From an uncultured Bacteroidales bacterium (GTDB lineage: Bacteria > Bacteroidota > Bacteroidia > Bacteroidales > Paludibacteraceae), in assembly GCA_900316995.1 (NCBI GenBank), contig ONEZ01000012.1, positions 1-64,000 of the forward strand: DNA of 64,000 nt, in the 5' to 3' direction. Below, piece by piece: positions 165 to 24,639 of the stretch. Each line of letters begins with the position of its first letter. Within the stretch, counting starts at the first letter, position 1. The position numbers and the translations under genes are program-made. Below the pieces are notes generated by a model that saw nothing but the letters and a program-made list of their open reading frames with translations, searched no databases and was not told the origin of the DNA.

Positions 165-1700
165 CTATTGTGCACTCTTGCTTTTTATGTACTTTCTTAT
201 GTTATGAGCTGTCGCAATCAATCCAAACTCAACAGTTACTTTTTGCATAGATCTTAGTCTAAACCTTTTGAACCCGTGATTGTATTTTATATCTCCAAAT
301 GTGCTTTCCGGTTCAATAGGCCTTTTACTTCTATGTTTAAGACCTTGCTCACTTAGGAGCAGTCCCTTGACCAGTTGCTTATATTTTCTGTATTGTTCAT
401 TTACCTTTATGACCCTGTTCCCACTGCCTTTGTGACATAGCCCTTTCAGAGGACATCCGCTACAGTCTTTTGCCATATACAGTTTGTAGTGTTGAACGTA
501 CCCCCTGTCTGATGTTTCTGTCCTGCCGCCTGTGCAGGTGAGATGTTGTCCCATGACACATACATAGTAGTCGTCTGATTCATTGTAGAACATATTCTCT
601 GGCAGGAACGGGTTCTTGACGAAGTCACGCTTCTGTTCTCTGTGGAACATGTTGTACTTGACGTACGGGGTGATGCCCTTGCCTAACAGATATTCATAAT
701 TCTCCTCGCTCCCATATCCTGAGTCAGCCACCACATCCATGCTCTGCTTTCCGTATTTCTGCTCGAATGATTCAAGGTGAGGCTTAAGGGTGCCCTGGTC
801 TCCTGGCGTCTGGTATATTCCATAGTTGGTTATGTACTGGTTCTCTGTGGATATCTGGACATTGTACCCCGGCTTGGTCTGCCCGTTGTTCATAGCATCC
901 TCCTTCATTCTCATGAACGTGGCATCGTGATCTGTTTTGCTGTAACTGTTCCTCTCTCCAAGTATGTCCAGCTTGTCCTCGTACTCCTTGAGTTTCTCTA
1001 CTGACTCGTCCTTTACCTTTTTGACGGCCTTGTATTCGGCACTGTTTCTTGATATGCCTTTCTCGTCCATCGTTCTTAGTATCTTGTCCGTCTTTTCCGC
1101 CACGGCCTCCGATGTCATCTCTGGCAGTTCTGAAGACGTGTTCTCTGACTCGATTATCTTTTCCGCTTCAGACAACACTTTGCCGACCCGCTCCCTGAGC
1201 TTTCTTTGATTGGTCTCTGTGGACCGCTTCCATACAAATGTGTATTTGTTTGACGCCGACTCAATCTTAGTCCCGTCCACATACTGGACATTCAATGATA
1301 CCAACCCCTCCTTATGCAGAAGCTCAACTATCTGGGTGAACAGCCCTTCAAACACCCCTTTAAGGCGGCTGCCCCTAAAATTGTTGATGGTCCTGAAGTC
1401 TGGACGGTTCATGCCTGACAGCCACATGTACACAACATTCTCGCTCAGCATACGCTCCATGAGGCGGCCTGAGTAAACGTTGTTAAGATAACTGTACACT
1501 ATGACCTTTAATAGCATCCGTGGGTTGTAGCTGCTGGCCCCGCCTCCCTTGTAGCCTGACAACAGCTCGGATATGTCCAGCTTGTCTATGATTGCGCTTA
1601 CCAACCTCGCCTTGTGATTCTTCGGTATAAAATCTCCTATGCAGTTAGGAAAAAGAAGATTGTCGTTTGGATTGTAATCTTTAAATGTTATCTTTGCCAT
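165..1700 (-). CDS. IS1182-family transposase
   Basis: The 511-residue protein has the layout of IS1182/IS5-like DDE transposases. An N-terminal helical domain (DUF772-like, about residues 15-115) carries the motif NNFR. A catalytic core follows, with YVDGTKIES (about residue 140), a D-rich segment near DHDATFMRMKED, VADSGYGSEENY (about 325) and a C-terminal RPIEPESTFGDIKYNHGFKRFR segment that holds the likely catalytic glutamate. A Cys cluster (CSGCPLKGLCH, about residue 415) sits between them, as is usual in this family. Start and stop are clean and no frameshift is seen, so it is probably functional. Confidence 0.9.
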   Translation of the reverse strand: MAKITFKDYNPNDNLLFPNCIGDFIPKNHKARLVSAIIDKLDISELLSGYKGGGASSYNPRMLLKVIVYSYLNNVYSGRLMERMLSENVVYMWLSGMNRPDFRTINNFRGSRLKGVFEGLFTQIVELLHKEGLVSLNVQYVDGTKIESASNKYTFVWKRSTETNQRKLRERVGKVLSEAEKIIESENTSSELPEMTSEAVAEKTDKILRTMDEKGISRNSAEYKAVKKVKDESVEKLKEYEDKLDILGERNSYSKTDHDATFMRMKEDAMNNGQTKPGYNVQISTENQYITNYGIYQTPGDQGTLKPHLESFEQKYGKQSMDVVADSGYGSEENYEYLLGKGITPYVKYNMFHREQKRDFVKNPFLPENMFYNESDDYYVCVMGQHLTCTGGRTETSDRGYVQHYKLYMAKDCSGCPLKGLCHKGSGNRVIKVNEQYRKYKQLVKGLLLSEQGLKHRSKRPIEPESTFGDIKYNHGFKRFRLRSMQKVTVEFGLIATAHNIRKYIKSKSAQ

Positions 1701-4497: not shown

Positions 4498-6072
4498 TTA
4501 TAGGCGATTGATGTCACGAGGTATCTTCTTGAAAATAATGTTGTGTACAGAGAGCCATTCCTTGTCAATTACACATTGGTCTGCATAAACAACGTATGTT
4601 TCCGCTTTCTCAACAATTATATTTAATGTATCGTGGCTGAGAGTTGTTATTTGCTCTGGCTCGTAATAAAAATAGTAGGCAGTGCCGTTATAATTGCCCA
4701 ATAGATATTGGCTTTTGTTAGAACTGCAATGGTACGGAGTACGTGTCTCGCTATACCAAATGTATTGGCGTATTTTCTCTACTCCAACAGACTCATTAAG
4801 GTTCGCATTATCATTGAACAATTGTTCTCCCAGTTCATAGTATGAAAAAGAACCACCAGTACCTTCCACTGCGTTTTTGCCATCGCCGTAACCGTTGATT
4901 ACCCGACGTACACGTTCTGCTGTGATGTTCTCTGCATAATCTTCCATCTCTACCAATATAAATTTACGGTTACCGCCATCTTGCTTGTTTAAATTTAAGA
5001 CCGCATGAGCCGTGGTACCTGAGCCGGCAAACGAATCGAGGATTATAGCATTTTTGTCTGTAGCTAAATGAAGAATTTTAGCTATCAACATATGAGGCTT
5101 GGGAGTATCGAAGGGGAACTTAACATCGTAAAAAATATCCTTCATTTGTTGTTTGGCATCTTGATTATGGCCGACCTCGTTATATTTCCAAATTGTCAAA
5201 GACGTAGTTCCCTGCTTAACCTCTGACAAGAATCTTTTAATTGACGGAACATTATTTCCATTTGCACCAAACCAAATTCTATCCTCAGACAACAGTTGTT
5301 CATATGTCTCTTTTGAAAACCTCCAACATCTACCTTGTGGAGGATTGACGACTCTTCCATTCGGTGTTATAATTGGGAAATCATACGTGGAACTATATGT
5401 TTTTACAGAACAATCACTAGGTTTCCACGGGCCTCTTGGATCATTGTCAATGTTTTTGTAACGAGAGTCCATTTCATCCGTTCGAGGCAATAAACCAGGT
5501 CTCCATAGTTTCTTGTTATTGGCATACACCAATATAAAATCGTGATTATCGCTGAAATATTTTGCGTCATTTTGTGGCGAGTATTTCTTTTCCCAAATTA
5601 CATTGTTTACAAAATTTCCTTCGCCAAAAACCTCATCACAAATTAGTTTGAGATTTGCCTGCTCGTTATCATCAATAGAGATAAAGATGGCACCATCATC
5701 TGAGAGTAGGCGTTGCAGTAGTTTGAGGCGTGGATACATCATGCAAAGCCATTTGTCGTGACGTGTGAGATCTTCTGCCTCTTTGCCTACCACTTGTCCA
5801 AGCCATTTCTTTATTTTAGGGCTGTTTACATTATCGTTATACACCCAGTTCTCATTGCCTGTGTTGTATGGTGGGTCTATGTAGATACATTTGATTTTGC
5901 CTTCATACTGCGGTAATAAAGCCTTGAGCGCTTCAAGATTATCACCATGAATAATCATATTGTCGCTTGACTCAGCATCACCAAATGTGTATTTCTTGTC
6001 TAATGTACGAAAGCGTACATCGTGATGGTGATTCACCACGGCATCCTTTCCAATCCAATTAAGTGTTGGCAT
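4498..6072 (-). CDS. mod: Type III adenine-specific DNA methyltransferase Mod
   Basis: Modification and specificity subunit partnering Res; it transfers a methyl group from S-adenosylmethionine to adenine. It is a beta-class enzyme: the catalytic motif DPPYNTG (residues 66-72) precedes the SAM-binding DSFAGSGTT motif (about residue 340). The variable region between them (about residues 130-310) is the likely target-recognition domain. The ATG at 6072 (MPTLNWIGKD) is preferred because Mod homologues typically begin like this. The frame is open to 6153, but that extension runs into a structured leader (6141-6280). Length is 524 residues. AT-rich composition suggests acquisition by transfer. Confidence 0.9.
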   Translation of the reverse strand: MPTLNWIGKDAVVNHHHDVRFRTLDKKYTFGDAESSDNMIIHGDNLEALKALLPQYEGKIKCIYIDPPYNTGNENWVYNDNVNSPKIKKWLGQVVGKEAEDLTRHDKWLCMMYPRLKLLQRLLSDDGAIFISIDDNEQANLKLICDEVFGEGNFVNNVIWEKKYSPQNDAKYFSDNHDFILVYANNKKLWRPGLLPRTDEMDSRYKNIDNDPRGPWKPSDCSVKTYSSTYDFPIITPNGRVVNPPQGRCWRFSKETYEQLLSEDRIWFGANGNNVPSIKRFLSEVKQGTTSLTIWKYNEVGHNQDAKQQMKDIFYDVKFPFDTPKPHMLIAKILHLATDKNAIILDSFAGSGTTAHAVLNLNKQDGGNRKFILVEMEDYAENITAERVRRVINGYGDGKNAVEGTGGSFSYYELGEQLFNDNANLNESVGVEKIRQYIWYSETRTPYHCSSNKSQYLLGNYNGTAYYFYYEPEQITTLSHDTLNIIVEKAETYVVYADQCVIDKEWLSVHNIIFKKIPRDINRL

Positions 6073-6140
6073 TGTTTGCGTTTTTGCTGGCGTATGCTTA
6101 TCATCAGAGGCAGGTAGCAGAGCACAAAAAACATGGACGG

Positions 6141-6280
6141 TATTCCTATCCATGTCCTAAAGGCTCTCGCATGCCTGCAAAACCAGATAAGTCACGTCCA
6201 TGCCTAAACGCATGGACGCTTGCGACTCATTCTTCGGTTTTGCTTTTGGAATTTGCGAGATTCTTAGGACTTTCCGAATA
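6141..6280 (-). other. Rod-like nested inverted repeat in the mod leader (copy 1 of a two-member family)
   Basis: On the minus strand five helices nest in order: TATTC/GAATA, GTCCTAA/TTAGGAC, TCTCGCA/TGCGAGA, GCAAAACC/GGTTTTGC, AGTC/GACT, capped by CGTCCATGC/GCATGGACG with a six-base loop. The 3'-side linkers between helices are GCC and AGGCA. The element at 22006-22138 has the same helix order, similar lengths and near-identical 3' linkers but different helix sequences. The element is downstream of a -7 box at 6379-6386 and about 69 nt before the mod start, so it would be transcribed as leader. It may be a structured RNA or a folded single-stranded DNA site; the function is unknown. Confidence 0.6.
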
Positions 6281-6378
6281 AATAGCAAACGCTATGATTA
6301 ATAATATGTTATAACTTAAATATCAGTTGCTTGTCAATATTTTCTTTATATAATTATATCGGTTTTATCTTCCATTTG

Positions 6379-6386
6379 CAAATATA
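6379..6386 (-). promoter_or_regulatory. -7 box of the mod-res promoter
   Basis: TATATTTG on the minus strand fits the Bacteroidetes -7 consensus TAnnTTTG. It would give a leader of about 300 nt containing the structured element. The rest of 6281-6463 is AT-rich and shows no gene. Confidence 0.5.
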
Positions 6387-6463: not shown

Positions 6464-7804
6464 CTATAATTCAGTCAGCAGGAAGCCCATATAGAATGGG
6501 ATGGTCAATAGGGGACCATTACGTCCAACATTGTAATCACCAAGTTTTATTGCCTGGCTAACGTGATACTTCTCATAGTTGGCAAGGATAGTCTGCAATG
6601 ATTTGGCATTGCCTGTAGTGGCCTTACACTCTACTAACGTACACTTGCCTTTATACCTTATAACAAAATCAATCTCCAAACCGCTATCCTTGTGGAAGTA
6701 GTATGGCTTCCGCCCCATCTTGCAAAATATATCAGCCATAATATTTTCATATATGGCACCTTTATATGCACCAAGCTGTCCTTGCATCACACTCCAGGCC
6801 GTACCTTCTTCAAGCATACTTATAAACAGACCTGTATCTGCCATATATACTTTAAATTGCTCTTGGATTGCATTGCCGTCTAATGGTAGTTCCGTGATTT
6901 GCATATTATAGCATCGGCGAATTATTCCAGCATCCTCTATCCATTGCAAACTCCCTTGATAATCACGGCTTTTGCCTCCTTTGCGTACAACTGAATATGT
7001 AAACTTTTTATATTCGCGAGCCAGTTGGCGGGGAATGGACTCAAAGCATTCCCTAATACGTGGTTTGTCACTTCCAGGAGCATATTTCACCATGTCTGAC
7101 TTGTATTCATCTATAATATTTGCCTGGACCTTATGTGTCTTCCCCATATCATGGGTTCTTAGAAATGTGCTAACTGCTTCTGGCATACCACCAACAATAA
7201 TATACTGCAGCAGCAACTGTCTCATGCGGTTATGTATGGCATCATTAACTGGCGTCTCGTCTTGCAAATGTTGTCTCAATATGGCTATATGCTCTTCTGT
7301 AATACCATTTGCCCACAACCACTCCTCAAAATCCATTGGGAACATGTTTACTATATGTTCATATCCAACCGGGATGGAGAAATTCTCATCTTCTTTCTTC
7401 TTCTCCTCTTTTGTTTTATAGCCATTAACACCCAAGAGTGAGCCAGTACATATTACATCATACCTGCCGTCTAAATAGAAGAATTTAAGTGAGGCCCGTG
7501 CCCGTGGGCAATCCTGTATCTCATCAAATATCAAACAAGTTCTGCCAGCCACAAACTTAGTTCCCATTATTCCGATACTAATGTTTGTGGTAATGGTATC
7601 TGTATTCAACCCTCCAGAGAAGAAAGACTTATATTCTTCATGTTCATGAAAGTCCAGATAAACCACATTTGCATAGTGATGCGATGCAAAATTTTTCACC
7701 GAACTGGTCTTGCCACATTGACGGCATCCCTTGATTACAATAGGCTTCCTTTGTGGATCATTCTTCCACTCTGTAAGTATGGTGTCGATTTTACGTTTGT
7801 ACAT
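6464..7804 (-). CDS. AAA ATPase with DUF4143 C-terminal domain
   Basis: The 446-residue protein has an N-terminal AAA_14 nucleotide-binding domain with GCRQCGKT (Walker A, residues 26-33) and CLIFDEIQD (Walker B), then a C-terminal DUF4143 domain (about residues 215-400) ending in a restriction-endonuclease-like stretch (GLEIDFVIRYKGKCTLVECKA, split here as GLEIDFVIRYKG then KCTLVECKA) whose D-ExK pattern resembles PD-(D/E)xK folds. Such proteins are very common in Bacteroidales, often many per genome, and their role is not settled. It lies next to the type III system but has its own promoter, so a defence link is only inferred. Three 33-bp repeats occupy its leader. Confidence 0.85.
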   Translation of the reverse strand: MYKRKIDTILTEWKNDPQRKPIVIKGCRQCGKTSSVKNFASHHYANVVYLDFHEHEEYKSFFSGGLNTDTITTNISIGIMGTKFVAGRTCLIFDEIQDCPRARASLKFFYLDGRYDVICTGSLLGVNGYKTKEEKKKEDENFSIPVGYEHIVNMFPMDFEEWLWANGITEEHIAILRQHLQDETPVNDAIHNRMRQLLLQYIIVGGMPEAVSTFLRTHDMGKTHKVQANIIDEYKSDMVKYAPGSDKPRIRECFESIPRQLAREYKKFTYSVVRKGGKSRDYQGSLQWIEDAGIIRRCYNMQITELPLDGNAIQEQFKVYMADTGLFISMLEEGTAWSVMQGQLGAYKGAIYENIMADIFCKMGRKPYYFHKDSGLEIDFVIRYKGKCTLVECKATTGNAKSLQTILANYEKYHVSQAIKLGDYNVGRNGPLLTIPFYMGFLLTEL

Positions 7805-20831: not shown

Positions 20832-21746
20832 TTAATATCTAGTGTCGTTTGTTTTTAAGTTTTCACCGTCAGAAGAAGATCCTGATAGAGAACTGATCTC
20901 TCCCTTTGTATATTTTATTTCCTCACCTAGTAAATGTGTCATCGGGTATCCCATTGTCCATACGGCCTCTCCGATTTCTGCGTCTTCATTGGCTATGGTA
21001 TACGGGATGTCTTTTAATTCAGAAAAATCTTCATCTCTAATCTGAAATATTGCAATATCATTAGATTCATCGCCAGTTACATAATAGGCTCGGTAGAATT
21101 TGTTATCAGAAGCTTTTACCATGCTATATTTATTGCCACCATAGACGTGATAATTTGTAACTATGTAGTTGTCTCTTAGTGCAAATGCTGTGCCTTGGCT
21201 GCTCTCTGAAGCAGAACCGCTTTCTACATACATATCATGTGTTGGATATGACTTTATGAAATTAAATTGAATGGTGGTCTGTGTCCCCATACCATAACTA
21301 TTGTTTTGTGCAATTTTACCGTTGTCTATGATAGCTGTAAATTGACCACTTTTGCTTAGAGTTGTTTGACAAGATGCAATAACATTATGTTTTGCATCAA
21401 ATATCATGAATTTATAAGCATTGCTATTACCGATATTTTCAAGTACTACATATGATTCCCAGTCATTTTCAGCTGTATTGCCAAAACATACCAAATATCT
21501 TCCATCACGTTTATCGCTCATTTTAACAATATAAACGTCTGGAAGTATGCTCGTCTTTGATTCTTTGACCCACGCATTATTAAGAATTGTAGCACCGTTC
21601 CCCCTAAACTCAACAGAATAAACTCCTTCAATAGGGTCAAGATTTGCGATGCACTTTTTGTAGTATTCTCTAGCCTCTTGTTCTGTGACCGCGAATGTAG
21701 AAGTAAAGAGAAATAGAGAAAAAAATAGTGTAATTGTTTTTTTCAT
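20832..21746 (-). pseudogene. Trypsin-like serine protease truncated before the catalytic serine
   Basis: The 304-residue product has a signal peptide (MKKTITLFFSLFLFTSTFA), a beta-rich N-terminal region of unknown type (about 20-165) and the first two-thirds of a trypsin-like domain: YIVTNYHV supplies the catalytic His (about residue 200), SNDIAIFQI the Asp (about 235), and VWTMGYP the following strand. The protein stops after SLSGSSSDGENL, just where the oxyanion loop and GNSGGP serine motif should follow. No such motif occurs in any frame downstream; a fragment of another gene begins instead. It is best explained by an internal deletion and would be proteolytically inactive. A strong -7 box remains. 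Confidence 0.65.
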
Positions 21747-21789
21747 AAAAATAGTCATAGTATTTGTATGTTTTTTGTTTTTCGTTTTA

Positions 21790-21797
21790 CAAAGATA
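21790..21797 (-). promoter_or_regulatory. -7 box of the truncated protease gene
   Basis: TATCTTTG on the minus strand, about 45 nt before the ATG at 21746. Confidence 0.55.
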
Positions 21798-21832
21798 AAC
21801 AACTTTGCATTTGATTATTTTTAGTGTGTGTG

Positions 21833-21940
21833 AACCGATAGTTCACAGTGAACAATTAGTTTTCAATCCTAACCGATATTTTAGCGGTTCGGCAAAGATT
21901 ATAGTGGGTTATGATGTGATTTGTAAAATAACTACTTTTG
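21833..21940 (+). promoter_or_regulatory. Operator-like palindrome and promoter upstream of the HTH gene
   Basis: GTTCAC-a-GTGAAC (21841-21853) is a perfect 13-bp palindrome and is flanked by two copies of AACCGATA (21833-21840 and 21871-21878). A -7 box TACTTTTG (21933-21940) follows. Transcription from it would read through the structured element at 22006-22138 into the HTH gene at 22164. Confidence 0.5.
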
Positions 21941-22005
21941 CAAAAACCATATAATCAAACGGAATAGAATAAATAGAAATTTCTTGTTAAATTGAGTATT
22001 GCGCT

Positions 22006-22138
22006 CTTATTCTCTACACCGTAAACGACCAATTTGTATGTAGCCAGAATAAGCAGTAAGTGATGTTCACGTCTTGTGGCGTGAACTGTCACGTGTTTAT
22101 TGGCTACAAGGCTTTGGTCGGCCCACGGTGTGAATAAG
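22006..22138 (+). other. Rod-like nested inverted repeat in the HTH-gene leader (copy 2 of a two-member family)
   Basis: Nested helices in order: CTTATTC/GAATAAG (22006, 22132), ACACCGT/ACGGTGT (22016, 22125), CGACCAA/TTGGTCG (22026, 22114), TGTAGCCA/TGGCTACA (22039, 22101), GTGA/TCAC, and apical GTTCACG/CGTGAAC with an 8-nt loop. The 3' linkers between the second to fourth helices are AGGCT and GCCC. Copy 1 at 6141-6280 has AGGCA and GCC in the same places, and both begin TTGC-n3/4-TTATTC. It would lie within a roughly 200-nt leader ending 26 nt before the HTH start. A structured RNA or a folded DNA recombination site are both possible. Confidence 0.65.
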
Positions 22139-22163
22139 CAAACGGATAGTTGACGCCATTTTT

Positions 22164-22394
22164 ATGCAAGCACCAAAGCTACACATCGGACGTATCATAA
22201 ATGAGGAACTGTACGCACAAGGGCACACCACTGTGTGGCCTGCACAGCAGCTTAACTGCACAAGGCGTAATGTCTATAAAATTTACCAAAGGTCTTGGAT
22301 TCAGACTGACCTACTTTTAAAAATCTCTGTGATTTTACGTAGGAACTTTTTCGTGGAGTATGCTAAGGAGTATGAGAGACTCACACAGTTTTAA
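22164..22394 (+). CDS. Small helix-turn-helix DNA-binding protein
   Basis: The 76-residue protein has a lambda-repressor-like (XRE) helix-turn-helix: LHIGRIINEELYAQGHTTVW then AQQLNCTRRNVYKIYQ as the turn and recognition helix. Small proteins of this type are common in Bacteroidales genomes, usually as solo genes, and their targets are unknown. The gene is preceded by a long structured leader and, further up, by the palindrome GTTCAC-a-GTGAAC, a plausible autoregulatory operator (inference). The apical helix of the leader element contains the same GTTCAC/GTGAAC halves. Confidence 0.75.
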   Translation: MQAPKLHIGRIINEELYAQGHTTVWPAQQLNCTRRNVYKIYQRSWIQTDLLLKISVILRRNFFVEYAKEYERLTQF

Positions 22395-22453
22395 GGTTTA
22401 AGAAATTCTTTGATGTAAAATAGGGTATCATGTGCATCTATGTAAATTTTTCT

Positions 22454-22514
22454 GTTGTAATTGACAAAAATTATAATTTCTGCAGTTATAATTGACAAAA
22501 TTTGTATATTTGCA
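22454..22514 (+). promoter_or_regulatory. Tandemly duplicated promoter of the nucleotidyltransferase gene
   Basis: Two direct repeats of 31 and 30 bp (22454-22484 and 22485-22514) each contain TAATTGACAAAA and end near TGCAG. The second has a full -7 box TATATTTG; the first has the weaker TATAATTT. The duplication may give two start points or reflect replication slippage. Confidence 0.6.
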
Positions 22515-22553
22515 GAACTTAGTCTACAAAATTTGTTAGCCGTGGATGTGTAA

Positions 22554-22850
22554 GTGAAAACTACAGGAGAATATATTAACATTATAAACGCCCACTCTGA
22601 TGAACTTAAATCAAAGTTTGGGGTGAAATCGTTACGTTTGTTTGGTTCTACTGCGCGCAATCAGCATAATGAAAAAAGTGATGTTGATGTTTTTGTTGAT
22701 ATGCCTCCAAGAATATTTAAAATTGTGGGGTTAGGTATTTATCTGGAAGATTTACTTGGATGCCATGTTGATGTGGTGAGGAATCACAGTAATATGAATG
22801 TTTTCTTAAGAAATGAAATAGAAAGAGATGGAATCACTGTCTTCAACTAA
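22554..22850 (+). CDS. MNT-type nucleotidyltransferase domain protein (orphan MntA-like)
   Basis: The 98-residue single-domain protein of the minimal nucleotidyltransferase family carries GSTARNQHNEKSDVDVFVD (residues about 31-49), the GSx10DxD catalytic signature, with a third acidic residue at CHVDVV. MntA antitoxins of this type AMPylate a HEPN (HepT) toxin encoded immediately beside them, but no HEPN gene is adjacent here: a terminator follows 38 nt after the stop. Start is a GTG. It may be a relic of a lost toxin pair or act alone. Confidence 0.85.
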   Translation: MKTTGEYINIINAHSDELKSKFGVKSLRLFGSTARNQHNEKSDVDVFVDMPPRIFKIVGLGIYLEDLLGCHVDVVRNHSNMNVFLRNEIERDGITVFN

Positions 22851-22887
22851 TATTATCGAGCATCTTAATGGTTGCTTGTAATTCCCT

Positions 22888-22913
22888 CCTCCTTATCACA
22901 AAGGAGGTTTTTT
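22888..22913 (+). terminator. Intrinsic terminator after the nucleotidyltransferase gene
   Basis: CCTCCTT pairs with AAGGAGG around a short loop, followed by six T. Confidence 0.85.
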
Positions 22914-22961
22914 ATTGCGAACACACGTTGCCCTAAATTTGGAGAGTTGTCACTTTTTACG

Positions 22962-22969
22962 TAAATTTG
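22962..22969 (+). promoter_or_regulatory. -7 box of pfp
   Basis: TAAATTTG about 57 nt before the ATG at 23026. Confidence 0.55.
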
Positions 22970-23025
22970 CACTCTCTATGGGATGAAAATTTTTGATTAA
23001 AAAACATAAATATTTTTTTTGAATT

Positions 23026-24639
23026 ATGAACAAGAGCGCGCTTCAAATCGCAAGGGCTGCATATCAGCCTAAACTGCCTCAGGCACTTAAGGGTGCGGTG
23101 GCTATTACTGAGGGTGAGGCTACACAGTCTGTAGCAGACCAGGAAGAGATTAAGAAACTGTTCCCTAACACTTACGGAATGCCGGTTGTAAAATTTGTGG
23201 CAGCCTCCAAGGCTGAGACTCTGCCAGCTATGAACGTTGGTGTTATACTTTCAGGTGGTCAGGCTCCTGGCGGACACAATGTTATCTCTGGTATTTTTGA
23301 TGGTCTCAAGGCTCTTAACAAGGATTGCAAGCTTTACGGTTTCCTTGGTGGCCCAAGCGGACTTATAGACCACAAGTACATGGAGCTTACAGCTGATATT
23401 ATAGATGAGTACCGTAACACTGGCGGTTTTGACATCATAGGCTCAGGCCGTACAAAACTTGAGAAGCAGGACCAGTTTGACAGCGGTATTGAGATTTGCA
23501 ACAAGCTTGGTATCAAGGCCCTTATTATTATAGGCGGCGATGATTCAAACACTAACGCATGTGTTCTTGCTGAGTACTATCTGCAGAAGAAGTGCGGCAT
23601 ACAGGTTATAGGCTGCCCTAAGACCATTGACGGTGACCTTAAGAACTCAATGATTGAGACATCATTTGGTTTTGACACCGCTTGCAAGGTATATTCAGAG
23701 GTTATTGGTAACATCATGCGTGACGCCAACTCTGCTAAGAAATATTGGCACTTCATTAAGCTTATGGGCCGTAGTGCTTCTCACATTGCGCTTGAGTGCG
23801 GACTCCAGACACAGCCTAACGTATGTATAGTTTCTGAGGAAGTTGAGGCTAAGAAGATGACTCTCTCTCAGATAGTTAATGATATTGCTGACAAGGTTGC
23901 AGCACGTGCTGCACAGGGCAATAACTTTGGTGTGGTTCTTATCCCAGAGGGTCTTATTGAGTTCATTCCTGAGATGAAGGTTCTTATCTCTGAGCTCAAC
24001 GATGCATTAGCTAAGGAGAGCGATGTGGCTAAGGCTCTTAAGATGATTTCTGCTCAGAGTCTTTCTGTATATAACTCACTCCCAGAGGCTATTGCAAAAC
24101 AGCTTACTCTTGAGCGTGACCCACACGGAAACGTTCAGGTATCTCTGATTGAGACTGAGAAGCTTCTTATTGAAATGGTTAAGACTCGTCTTGCAGCAAT
24201 GAAGGCTGAGGGTAAATACTGCGGTAAGTTCTCCGCTCTTGGTCACTTCTTTGGTTATGAGGGCCGCTGCGCAGCTCCTTCAAACTTTGATGCAGACTAC
24301 TGCTACAGCCTTGGTTACAATGCCGCTCATCTTATTGCAAACGGCAAGACTGGTTATATGTCACTTATCCAGAACACTACAAAGCCTGCATCTGAGTGGG
24401 TTGCCGCCGGTGTTCCTATCACTATGATGATGAACATGGAGCGTCGCCACGGAGAGATGAAACCTGTTATCCGCAAGGCTCTTGTGGAGCTTGACGGTGC
24501 TCCTTTCAAGGCTCTTGCCGCTAACCGTGACAAGTGGGCTATAGAAACTGCATACGTATATCCAGGCCCAATCCAATACTTTGGTCCATCAGAGGTATGC
24601 GATCAACCGACAAAGACTCTTATGCTTGAAAAAGCATAA
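23026..24639 (+). CDS. pfp: Pyrophosphate--fructose 6-phosphate 1-phosphotransferase
   Basis: Reversible PPi-dependent phosphofructokinase of glycolysis and gluconeogenesis, the long (plant/spirochaete-type) form common in Bacteroidetes. At 537 residues the length fits. [11 protein letters not shown] (about residue 84) is the phosphate-binding loop, and GGDDSNTNA (about 173) is the PPi-type motif, where ATP enzymes have [15 protein letters not shown] contains the catalytic Asp, followed by [14 protein letters not shown] for fructose 6-phosphate binding. Codon use is biased as in highly expressed genes. It is monocistronic, between its own promoter and a strong terminator. Confidence 0.95.

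Follow-up and report, generated by a model that had tools for sequence, protein, structure and literature searches.

A widespread two-state leader RNA of Bacteroidota, probably a transcription attenuator, ahead of restriction, HTH and surface-protein genes

The window analysed here is the whole stretch of 64,000 nucleotides at the start of contig ONEZ01000012.1 (assembly GCA_900316995.1), from an uncultured Bacteroidales bacterium of the family Paludibacteraceae. Ahead of its type III mod gene lies a long rod-like hairpin, described in the initial annotation as the second copy of an element found elsewhere in the window, and this raises the question of what a structure that is kept in form and not in sequence does in front of a gene. 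Our study suggests that the element is probably the 5′ leader RNA of the gene downstream, working as a transcription attenuator, and that the rod competes with a second predicted fold, which corrects the earlier reading. The sequence evidence comprises two mutually exclusive predicted folds, self-specific complementarity, a T-run, a promoter motif, and the position and strand of the element relative to its gene; that transcription terminates there, and that the rod is the ON state, is what we infer.

Both rods are far more stable than shuffled sequence. Copy A (6141–6280, minus strand, ahead of mod) has a minimum free energy (MFE) of −64.4 kcal/mol over 6131–6290, compared to a shuffle mean of −37.6 (z −6.59), and copy B, on the plus strand, has −63.5 kcal/mol over 21996–22148, compared to −38.0 (z −6.85); in neither case was any of 200 shuffles as good. 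The two share one architecture, as had been claimed. The rod of copy A (6154–6270) is built of helices H1 (6270–6263/6162–6154), H2 (6260–6254/6171–6165) and H3 (6244–6236/6184–6177) and an apical half closed by a loop at 6209–6204, and that of copy B (22017–22130) of H1 (22017–22023/22124–22130), H2 (22026–22032/22114–22120), H3 (22039–22045/22102–22108) and an apical half at 22047–22101. The 3′-side linkers are AGGCA and GCC in copy A and AGGCT and GCCC in copy B, and the arm sequences are unrelated between the copies, yet paired in each. The outer TATTC/GAATA pair of the initial annotation forms only in some of the predicted folds.

When copy B was used for a DNA search of 41 genomes, its own genome yielded a second copy, 81 % identical, and six others had matches. 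Fifteen related leaders, copy A not among them, were aligned for a covariance model, R1, with a consensus structure derived from their individual folds. Copy B, a training member, scores 153 bits with R1, and copy A was found from outside the training set (46.5 bits, E 5e-6, in 139,566 bases); the genome holds three strong R1 matches plus copy A. The search of related genomes proposed in the initial annotation found relatives in samples of the family, the order and the phylum. R1 matches were present in 128 of 200 same-family genomes (E≤0.001; up to 13 candidates scored per genome, with at least 13 in one genome), in 102 of 295 genomes drawn from the order and in 26 of 296 drawn from the phylum, the last being the window's own genome, 23 of the same class and other orders, and two weak matches (E 1e-4 to 2e-4) from other classes. 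One genome carries two leaders of near-equal score 1.1 kb apart on the same strand (G275:C66:1253–1417 and 2378–2542), possibly a tandem array of leader plus gene. Several of the distant-family matches (G040, G268, G371 and G345) are no more than a few hundred bases from a contig end, as would be expected if the assemblies broke at these repeats.

A second set, of named species genomes, was collected with a pattern of 20 fixed bases and one free base for segment 1, a conserved stretch 5′ of the rod. It yielded 77 loci, of which 76 have record titles naming a Bacteroidota lineage and one reads ‘uncultured bacterium’. They are mostly from ruminant-gut Bacteroidales and include Paludibacteraceae, Salinivirgaceae, Bacteroidaceae and Tannerella. 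R1 placed the rod in 76 of the 77 (one truncated at a contig end), the Tannerella locus being without it. Rfam 15 gave no match at gathering score in the 64-kb window, and searches with a relaxed E-value over sets of 9 and 13 loci matched the element to no plausible bacterial leader family.

This wider set supports the earlier claim of a selected structure with covarying helices. Among 75 distinct named elements in the model alignment, 93.7 % of cells are standard pairs, compared to 76.0 % in shuffles, with 652 double-changed cells (196 in shuffles) and double changes in 31 of 47 pairs (25.6 in shuffles). Further pair types are in slight excess (105 against 98, with 12 of 500 shuffles as high), and sliding the partner by 1–3 columns lowers pairing to 34–44 %. 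As the model alignment is fitted to structure, the count was repeated after 68 of the 75 elements, with near-duplicates removed, had been aligned by MAFFT from sequence alone; 83 % of cells were paired, with 451 double changes, compared to 36–49 % and 130–240 when slid. H2 in particular occurs in many versions (TCTGGT, TCCGCC, CGACC, CCTAGG and TTCCCC among others), each of them paired within its own rod.

The rod does not account for all that is conserved. On its 3′ side, segment 4 is similar to the apical hairpin's 5′ arm and leads into a T-run ahead of the gene; in many relatives the GTTCACG–TTTTTT that follows the rod matches an apical GTTCACG, and in copy A CCGTCCATG–TTTTTT matches GCGTCCATGC in the apex. 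A T-run of at least six within bases 139–195 is present in 75 % of 217 elements, compared to 14 % of shuffled sequences, and one of at least four in 99 %, compared to 59 %. Four segments are proposed along copy A on the minus strand. Segment 1, ATAGCGTTTGCTATTTATTCGG (6274–6295), would form a small 5′ hairpin in the rod state and pair with segment 2 in the other; segment 2 (6210–6238, ending in GAAGAATGAGTCGCAAGCGTCCATGC) forms the 5′ arm of the rod's apical half; segment 3, GCATGGACGTGACTTATC (6186–6203), is its 3′ arm, with segment 2 or segment 4 as partner; and segment 4, GGATAGGAATACCGTCCATG, occupies 6126–6151 together with its T-run, a T6 at 6131–6126. In copy B, on the plus strand, segment 1, GAGTATTGCGCTCTTATTCTC, lies at 21994–22014, segment 3 at 22078–22101 and segment 4, with a T5, at 22132–22163. 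The conserved 5′ approach of the initial annotation is better explained as segment 1, which in the alternative fold is predicted to pair with the apical 5′ arm.

The complementarity between these segments is specific to each element. With segment 4 defined as the bases preceding the T-run, the 3:4 duplex averaged −21.2 kcal/mol for own partners and −16.8 for partners crossed between elements, and none of 10,000 permutations did as well (126 elements; of 127, one without a T-run was dropped, and 125 have at least four T). For 26 divergent elements the values were −20.7 and −14.8 kcal/mol, with none of 20,000 permutations as good. In 91 divergent elements with a variant segment 1, that is, one not beginning GAGC, both proposed pairings stood out, 1:2 with −17.1 own and −12.9 crossed and 3:4 with −25.5 and −19.2 kcal/mol (0 of 5000 permutations each). 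Pairings that had not been proposed gave nothing in the same 91 elements: 1:3 had −8.1 against −8.5 (4966 of 5000 as good) and 2:4 had −9.3 against −9.3 (2521 of 5000). The outer TATTC/GAATA pairing, 1:4 in these terms, likewise failed this comparison (−9.25 own, −9.36 crossed; 3264 of 5000 as good). Such permutation tests are inflated somewhat by relatedness, and the unproposed pairs are null under the same test. Since segment 3 has either segment 2, within the rod, or segment 4 as its partner, the two folds are mutually exclusive, and 1:2 plus 3:4 versus 2:3 is likely to be an attenuator layout in which the rod would be the antiterminator and 3:4 with its U-run the terminator.

Each half was also folded alone. 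The 3′ half had a mean z of −4.7, with 98 % of 126 elements below −2, and the 5′ half a mean z of −2.8, with 77 % below −2. In copy A the 3′ half (6203–6126) reaches −30.4 kcal/mol (z −4.1), and in copy B (22078–22163) −36.6 kcal/mol (z −4.4); their 5′ halves are not significant (z −1.3 and −1.1). By eye, many segment 4 sequences leave a few mismatches midway along the 3:4 helix. A terminator-pattern scan found none at 3:4, where the pattern's loop limit of 8 excludes such a hairpin, and two matches elsewhere in copy B, within 22075–22094.

Whether this leader belongs to the gene that follows was addressed through position, strand and promoter. Of the 75 named loci examined, 73 have a downstream ORF and two end too soon. 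In 69 of the 73, the next 80 nt contain the start of an ORF of at least 60 aa on the same strand, compared to 10 of 73 in the opposite-strand control, so that, on the question of orientation raised by the initial annotation, the element is nearly always on the strand of its gene. The motif TAnnTTTG, which we take to be the Bacteroidota −7 promoter motif, occurs within 200 nt upstream in 45 of the 73, mostly at 50–100 nt, compared to 11.2 % of 5584 control windows. Both window copies have it: copy A as TATATTTG at 6379–6386 on the minus strand, some 85–90 nt 5′ of segment 1, and copy B as TACTTTTG at 21933–21940 on the plus strand.

These observations bear on the possibility that the rod is a mobile or single-stranded DNA element (integron attC-like, MITE or REP-like) standing ahead of cargo genes by chance, for which we see very little likelihood. 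Genomes do carry many divergent copies, and partial blastn matches, over 54 % and 67 % of the query, were found on plasmids of Phocaeicola massiliensis and Rhizosphaericola mali (Chitinophagales). Moreover, one genome (L277) encodes a pfk protein that is 100 % identical, and the 1.4 kb ahead of its pfk contain nothing of window positions 21500–22936; its DNA differs upstream of ~22937 and is without the leader, the HTH gene and a further ORF (nucleotidyltransferase-like by eye). Because this missing stretch includes a gene and flanks, it does not establish the rod itself as the mobile unit, and against mobility stand the fixed strand and distance to the gene start, the promoter motif upstream and the T-run at one end. 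The difference between L277 and window positions 21500–23080 may be a site of gain or loss, and in another genome of the genus the leader and HTH gene adjoin pfk. The R. mali plasmid, pB3-10, is typed as mobilizable and has its partial match (L302:2501–2640) flanked by a replication initiation gene on one side and a hypothetical gene on the other. A third plasmid query had no match in plasmid records, two queries found no copies in phage records, and one exact pattern found none in viral contigs.

In the window, both copies precede genes whose products modify or, by resemblance, bind DNA, as the initial annotation had it. Copy A stands before the type III mod gene (N6_N4_Mtase; 4498–6072, minus strand), whose likely start, MPTLNWIGK at 6072, is the start common to relatives. 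The ORF as listed (4498–6153, minus strand) begins at an ATG at 6153, inside the leader, so that automated annotation would probably extend mod into the RNA element. On the upstream side, an AAA_14/DUF4143 ATPase gene (6464–7804, minus strand) adjoins the mod leader on the same strand. The restriction island is edged by a DDE transposase gene (DUF772/DDE_Tnp_1_6; 165–1700, minus strand), which lies just downstream of type III res. Copy B precedes a small HTH (XRE-like) gene of 76 aa (22164–22394, plus strand), with the start codon directly 3′ of its T-run; the XRE-like label of these HTH proteins rests on weak matches. Copy B's listed neighbours, a trypsin-like gene and pfk, are not restriction-modification genes.

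The wider question put by the initial annotation, whether copies always sit ahead of HTH or restriction genes, was answered in the negative. In the 73 named loci, which were picked by the exact segment 1 pattern and classed by similarity and motifs, 28 downstream genes encode small HTH proteins, 39 DNA-modification, restriction or helicase proteins and 6 other proteins, three of which are BspA-like LRR proteins. Pfam searches of ten representatives returned N6_Mtase, HSDR_N_2, N6_N4_Mtase, DNA_methylase, ResIII, SNF2 and LRR_5, with no match for the putative methylase of L093. The link is strong in this pattern-picked set (67 of 73), and it is weaker, and not general, in 99 genome-sampled loci, where blastp against the named proteins assigned 37 genes to HTH, 9 to restriction, 3 to others and 50 to none (own-family subset, n=53: 15, 7, 2 and 29, respectively). 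By eye, the genes that resemble no named protein include several methylases and helicases and many secreted proteins. Leaders of other families stand before genes for lipoproteins and secreted proteins, and those of another order before genes for SusC-like receptors and others. An HTH protein is unlikely to be the universal partner of the leader, as one distant genome (G040) has many leaders, at least nine, with no HTH match in a single-protein search.

The distance to the gene bears on another possibility, namely that the leader acts on translation or stability, the rod shielding or exposing the start codon or serving as an RNase III substrate, and the T-run being merely part of an A/U-rich start region. 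The rods are indeed long double strands, and in 16 of the 73 named loci no more than 5 nt separate the element's end from the start of the ORF, copy B being such a case. In 49 of the 73, however, it starts 30–70 nt beyond, with the T-run still adjoining segment 4, and self-specific 3:4 complementarity is not needed for such a role; we regard this explanation as unlikely.

A ribosome-controlled attenuator of the trp-leader kind would have the same four-segment topology and would call for a leader peptide. An ATG-started short ORF overlapping segment 1 was found at just 1 of the 73 named loci, and on this ground the leader peptide was rejected and such control appears highly improbable. Any short ORF starting with ATG, GTG or TTG overlaps segment 1 in 28 of the 73; among 25 loci inspected, the start of these is mostly a TTG at one common position, from the conserved TTGAGC.

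An attenuator remains the preferred reading, and how it could switch is suggested by the energies of its two states. The rod is the more stable by 10.9 kcal/mol on average over 215 elements; 10 of these have the two-hairpin state as their MFE, and 42 have it within 5 kcal/mol. The two-hairpin state is also the MFE in L292 and L298, two of nine other-order elements inspected. Compared to two hairpins without kissing, the rod is more stable by 21 kcal/mol in copy A and 12 kcal/mol in copy B, a difference so large that something must hold the rod open for the other state to form. When copies A and B were lengthened stepwise, the 1:2 hairpin was the MFE at ~75–105 nt and the rod later.

We propose that transcription would begin some tens of bases upstream, making the four segments in order. 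Segment 2 would first pair with segment 1; as segment 3 emerges, segment 2 could swap to it and, with H1–H3, complete the rod. In the ON state the rod would hide segment 3, no terminator would form and the gene would be read. If the rod were prevented, segment 3 would pair with segment 4, with the U-run directly after, and transcription would stop before the gene. The order of energies and of synthesis together suggest a gene that is ON by default and is turned off by a factor holding the 5′ half open; the trigger may be a protein or RNA on the 5′ half, or polymerase pausing. As modelled, the antiterminator is unusually long for an attenuator.

In the OFF state the H2 arms would lie in or near the loops of the two hairpins, where they could kiss and would be a likely nucleus of switching. 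Inner stems (AAAU/AUUU and AGGY/RCCU) would hold the arms as complementary loops, and in copy A small stems flanking the H2 arms are GAAU/AUUC and AGGC/GCCU. Support for the inner stems across the family is modest. The 5′ stem with a 7-nt loop has 3.01 of 4 pairs against 2.91 (5/3000), and the 3′ stem has 2.67 against 2.44 with a 6-nt loop (0/3000) and 1.89 against 1.74 with an 8-nt loop (4/3000). Other loop lengths were null or reversed (3′ loop of 7, 2.07 against 2.21; 5′ loop of 8, 2.41 against 2.50).

Exposed complementary loops of ~7 nt (H2 words such as CTGGTAA and CGACCAA) could give each leader an address, and one speculative extension, to which we assign a low probability, is a self-kissing switch, in which terminated leaders would accumulate, pair with nascent leaders of the same word, block the rod and shut the gene off. 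If true, this would provide dose-dependent feedback for each restriction or surface gene, and genes with a common word would be a co-regulated set across the genome. If each leader answered to its own RNA alone, loop words should be orthogonal between the copies within a genome; this was not supported. Pairs with identical words within genomes numbered 13, compared to 8.0 expected, in the group of the window's own family (n=55), and 16, compared to 10.5, in another (n=36); two smaller groups had 1 against 1.4 (n=10) and 1 against 2.8 (n=15, P 0.14). As the words are not kept different within a genome, this argues against strict one-leader-one-RNA control, and not against shared words.

Among known systems, trp attenuators combine 1:2 and 3:4 versus 2:3 segments with a leader peptide and biosynthesis targets. 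The leader family has the same exclusive pairings and a terminator-like hairpin with U-run before the gene, and it differs in being without a leader peptide, in an antiterminator with three extra helices whose strands lie inside the loops of the other state, and in its targets, which are restriction, HTH and surface genes where trp leaders control biosynthesis. Variable, well-compensated arms with complementary loops typify antisense and kissing specificity systems. The family would share these features with the antisense-controlled plasmid rep attenuators of the pT181/pIP501 type and with kissing-loop systems. From the sequence no antisense RNA was identified, and in the group of the window's own family the loop words are no more diverse within genomes than expected.

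Within the phylum, one report describes FopS of Bacteroides as paralogous sRNAs with a single-stranded 5′ stretch and a terminator hairpin, which act in trans on SusC-like transporter mRNAs (PMC11697453). Like the leaders, FopS is a multicopy Bacteroidota RNA family linked to surface-protein genes; unlike them, it has been deposited in Rfam (PMC11697453), where the leader family has no match. Palindromic Bacteroidetes candidate RNAs of human microbiomes include HMP2_4205 (132 bp, near TPR genes, predicted as a terminator) and HMP_4078 (109 bp, near phage genes) (PMC8040213), which are similar in length to the leader when compared by description only. The portions of that article consulted mention no two-state fold, and ‘restriction’ and ‘methyl’ occur 0 times in its main text (PMC8040213). 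Parts of the leader family may already be catalogued there as candidates. No earlier description of the leader was found in literature titles and abstracts. Attenuators are well known, and this leader family differs by its architecture, targets and breadth.

The safe switch-on of restriction-modification genes, especially in a newly entered cell, is an old question, and controller proteins are the usual answer. An RNA attenuator that is widespread ahead of type III, type I/IIG-like, C5-methylase, HTH and surface genes would, if confirmed, add a further layer of control, one common to defence and surface genes across a major gut-bacterial phylum. The covariance model can be used to annotate hundreds of such leaders.
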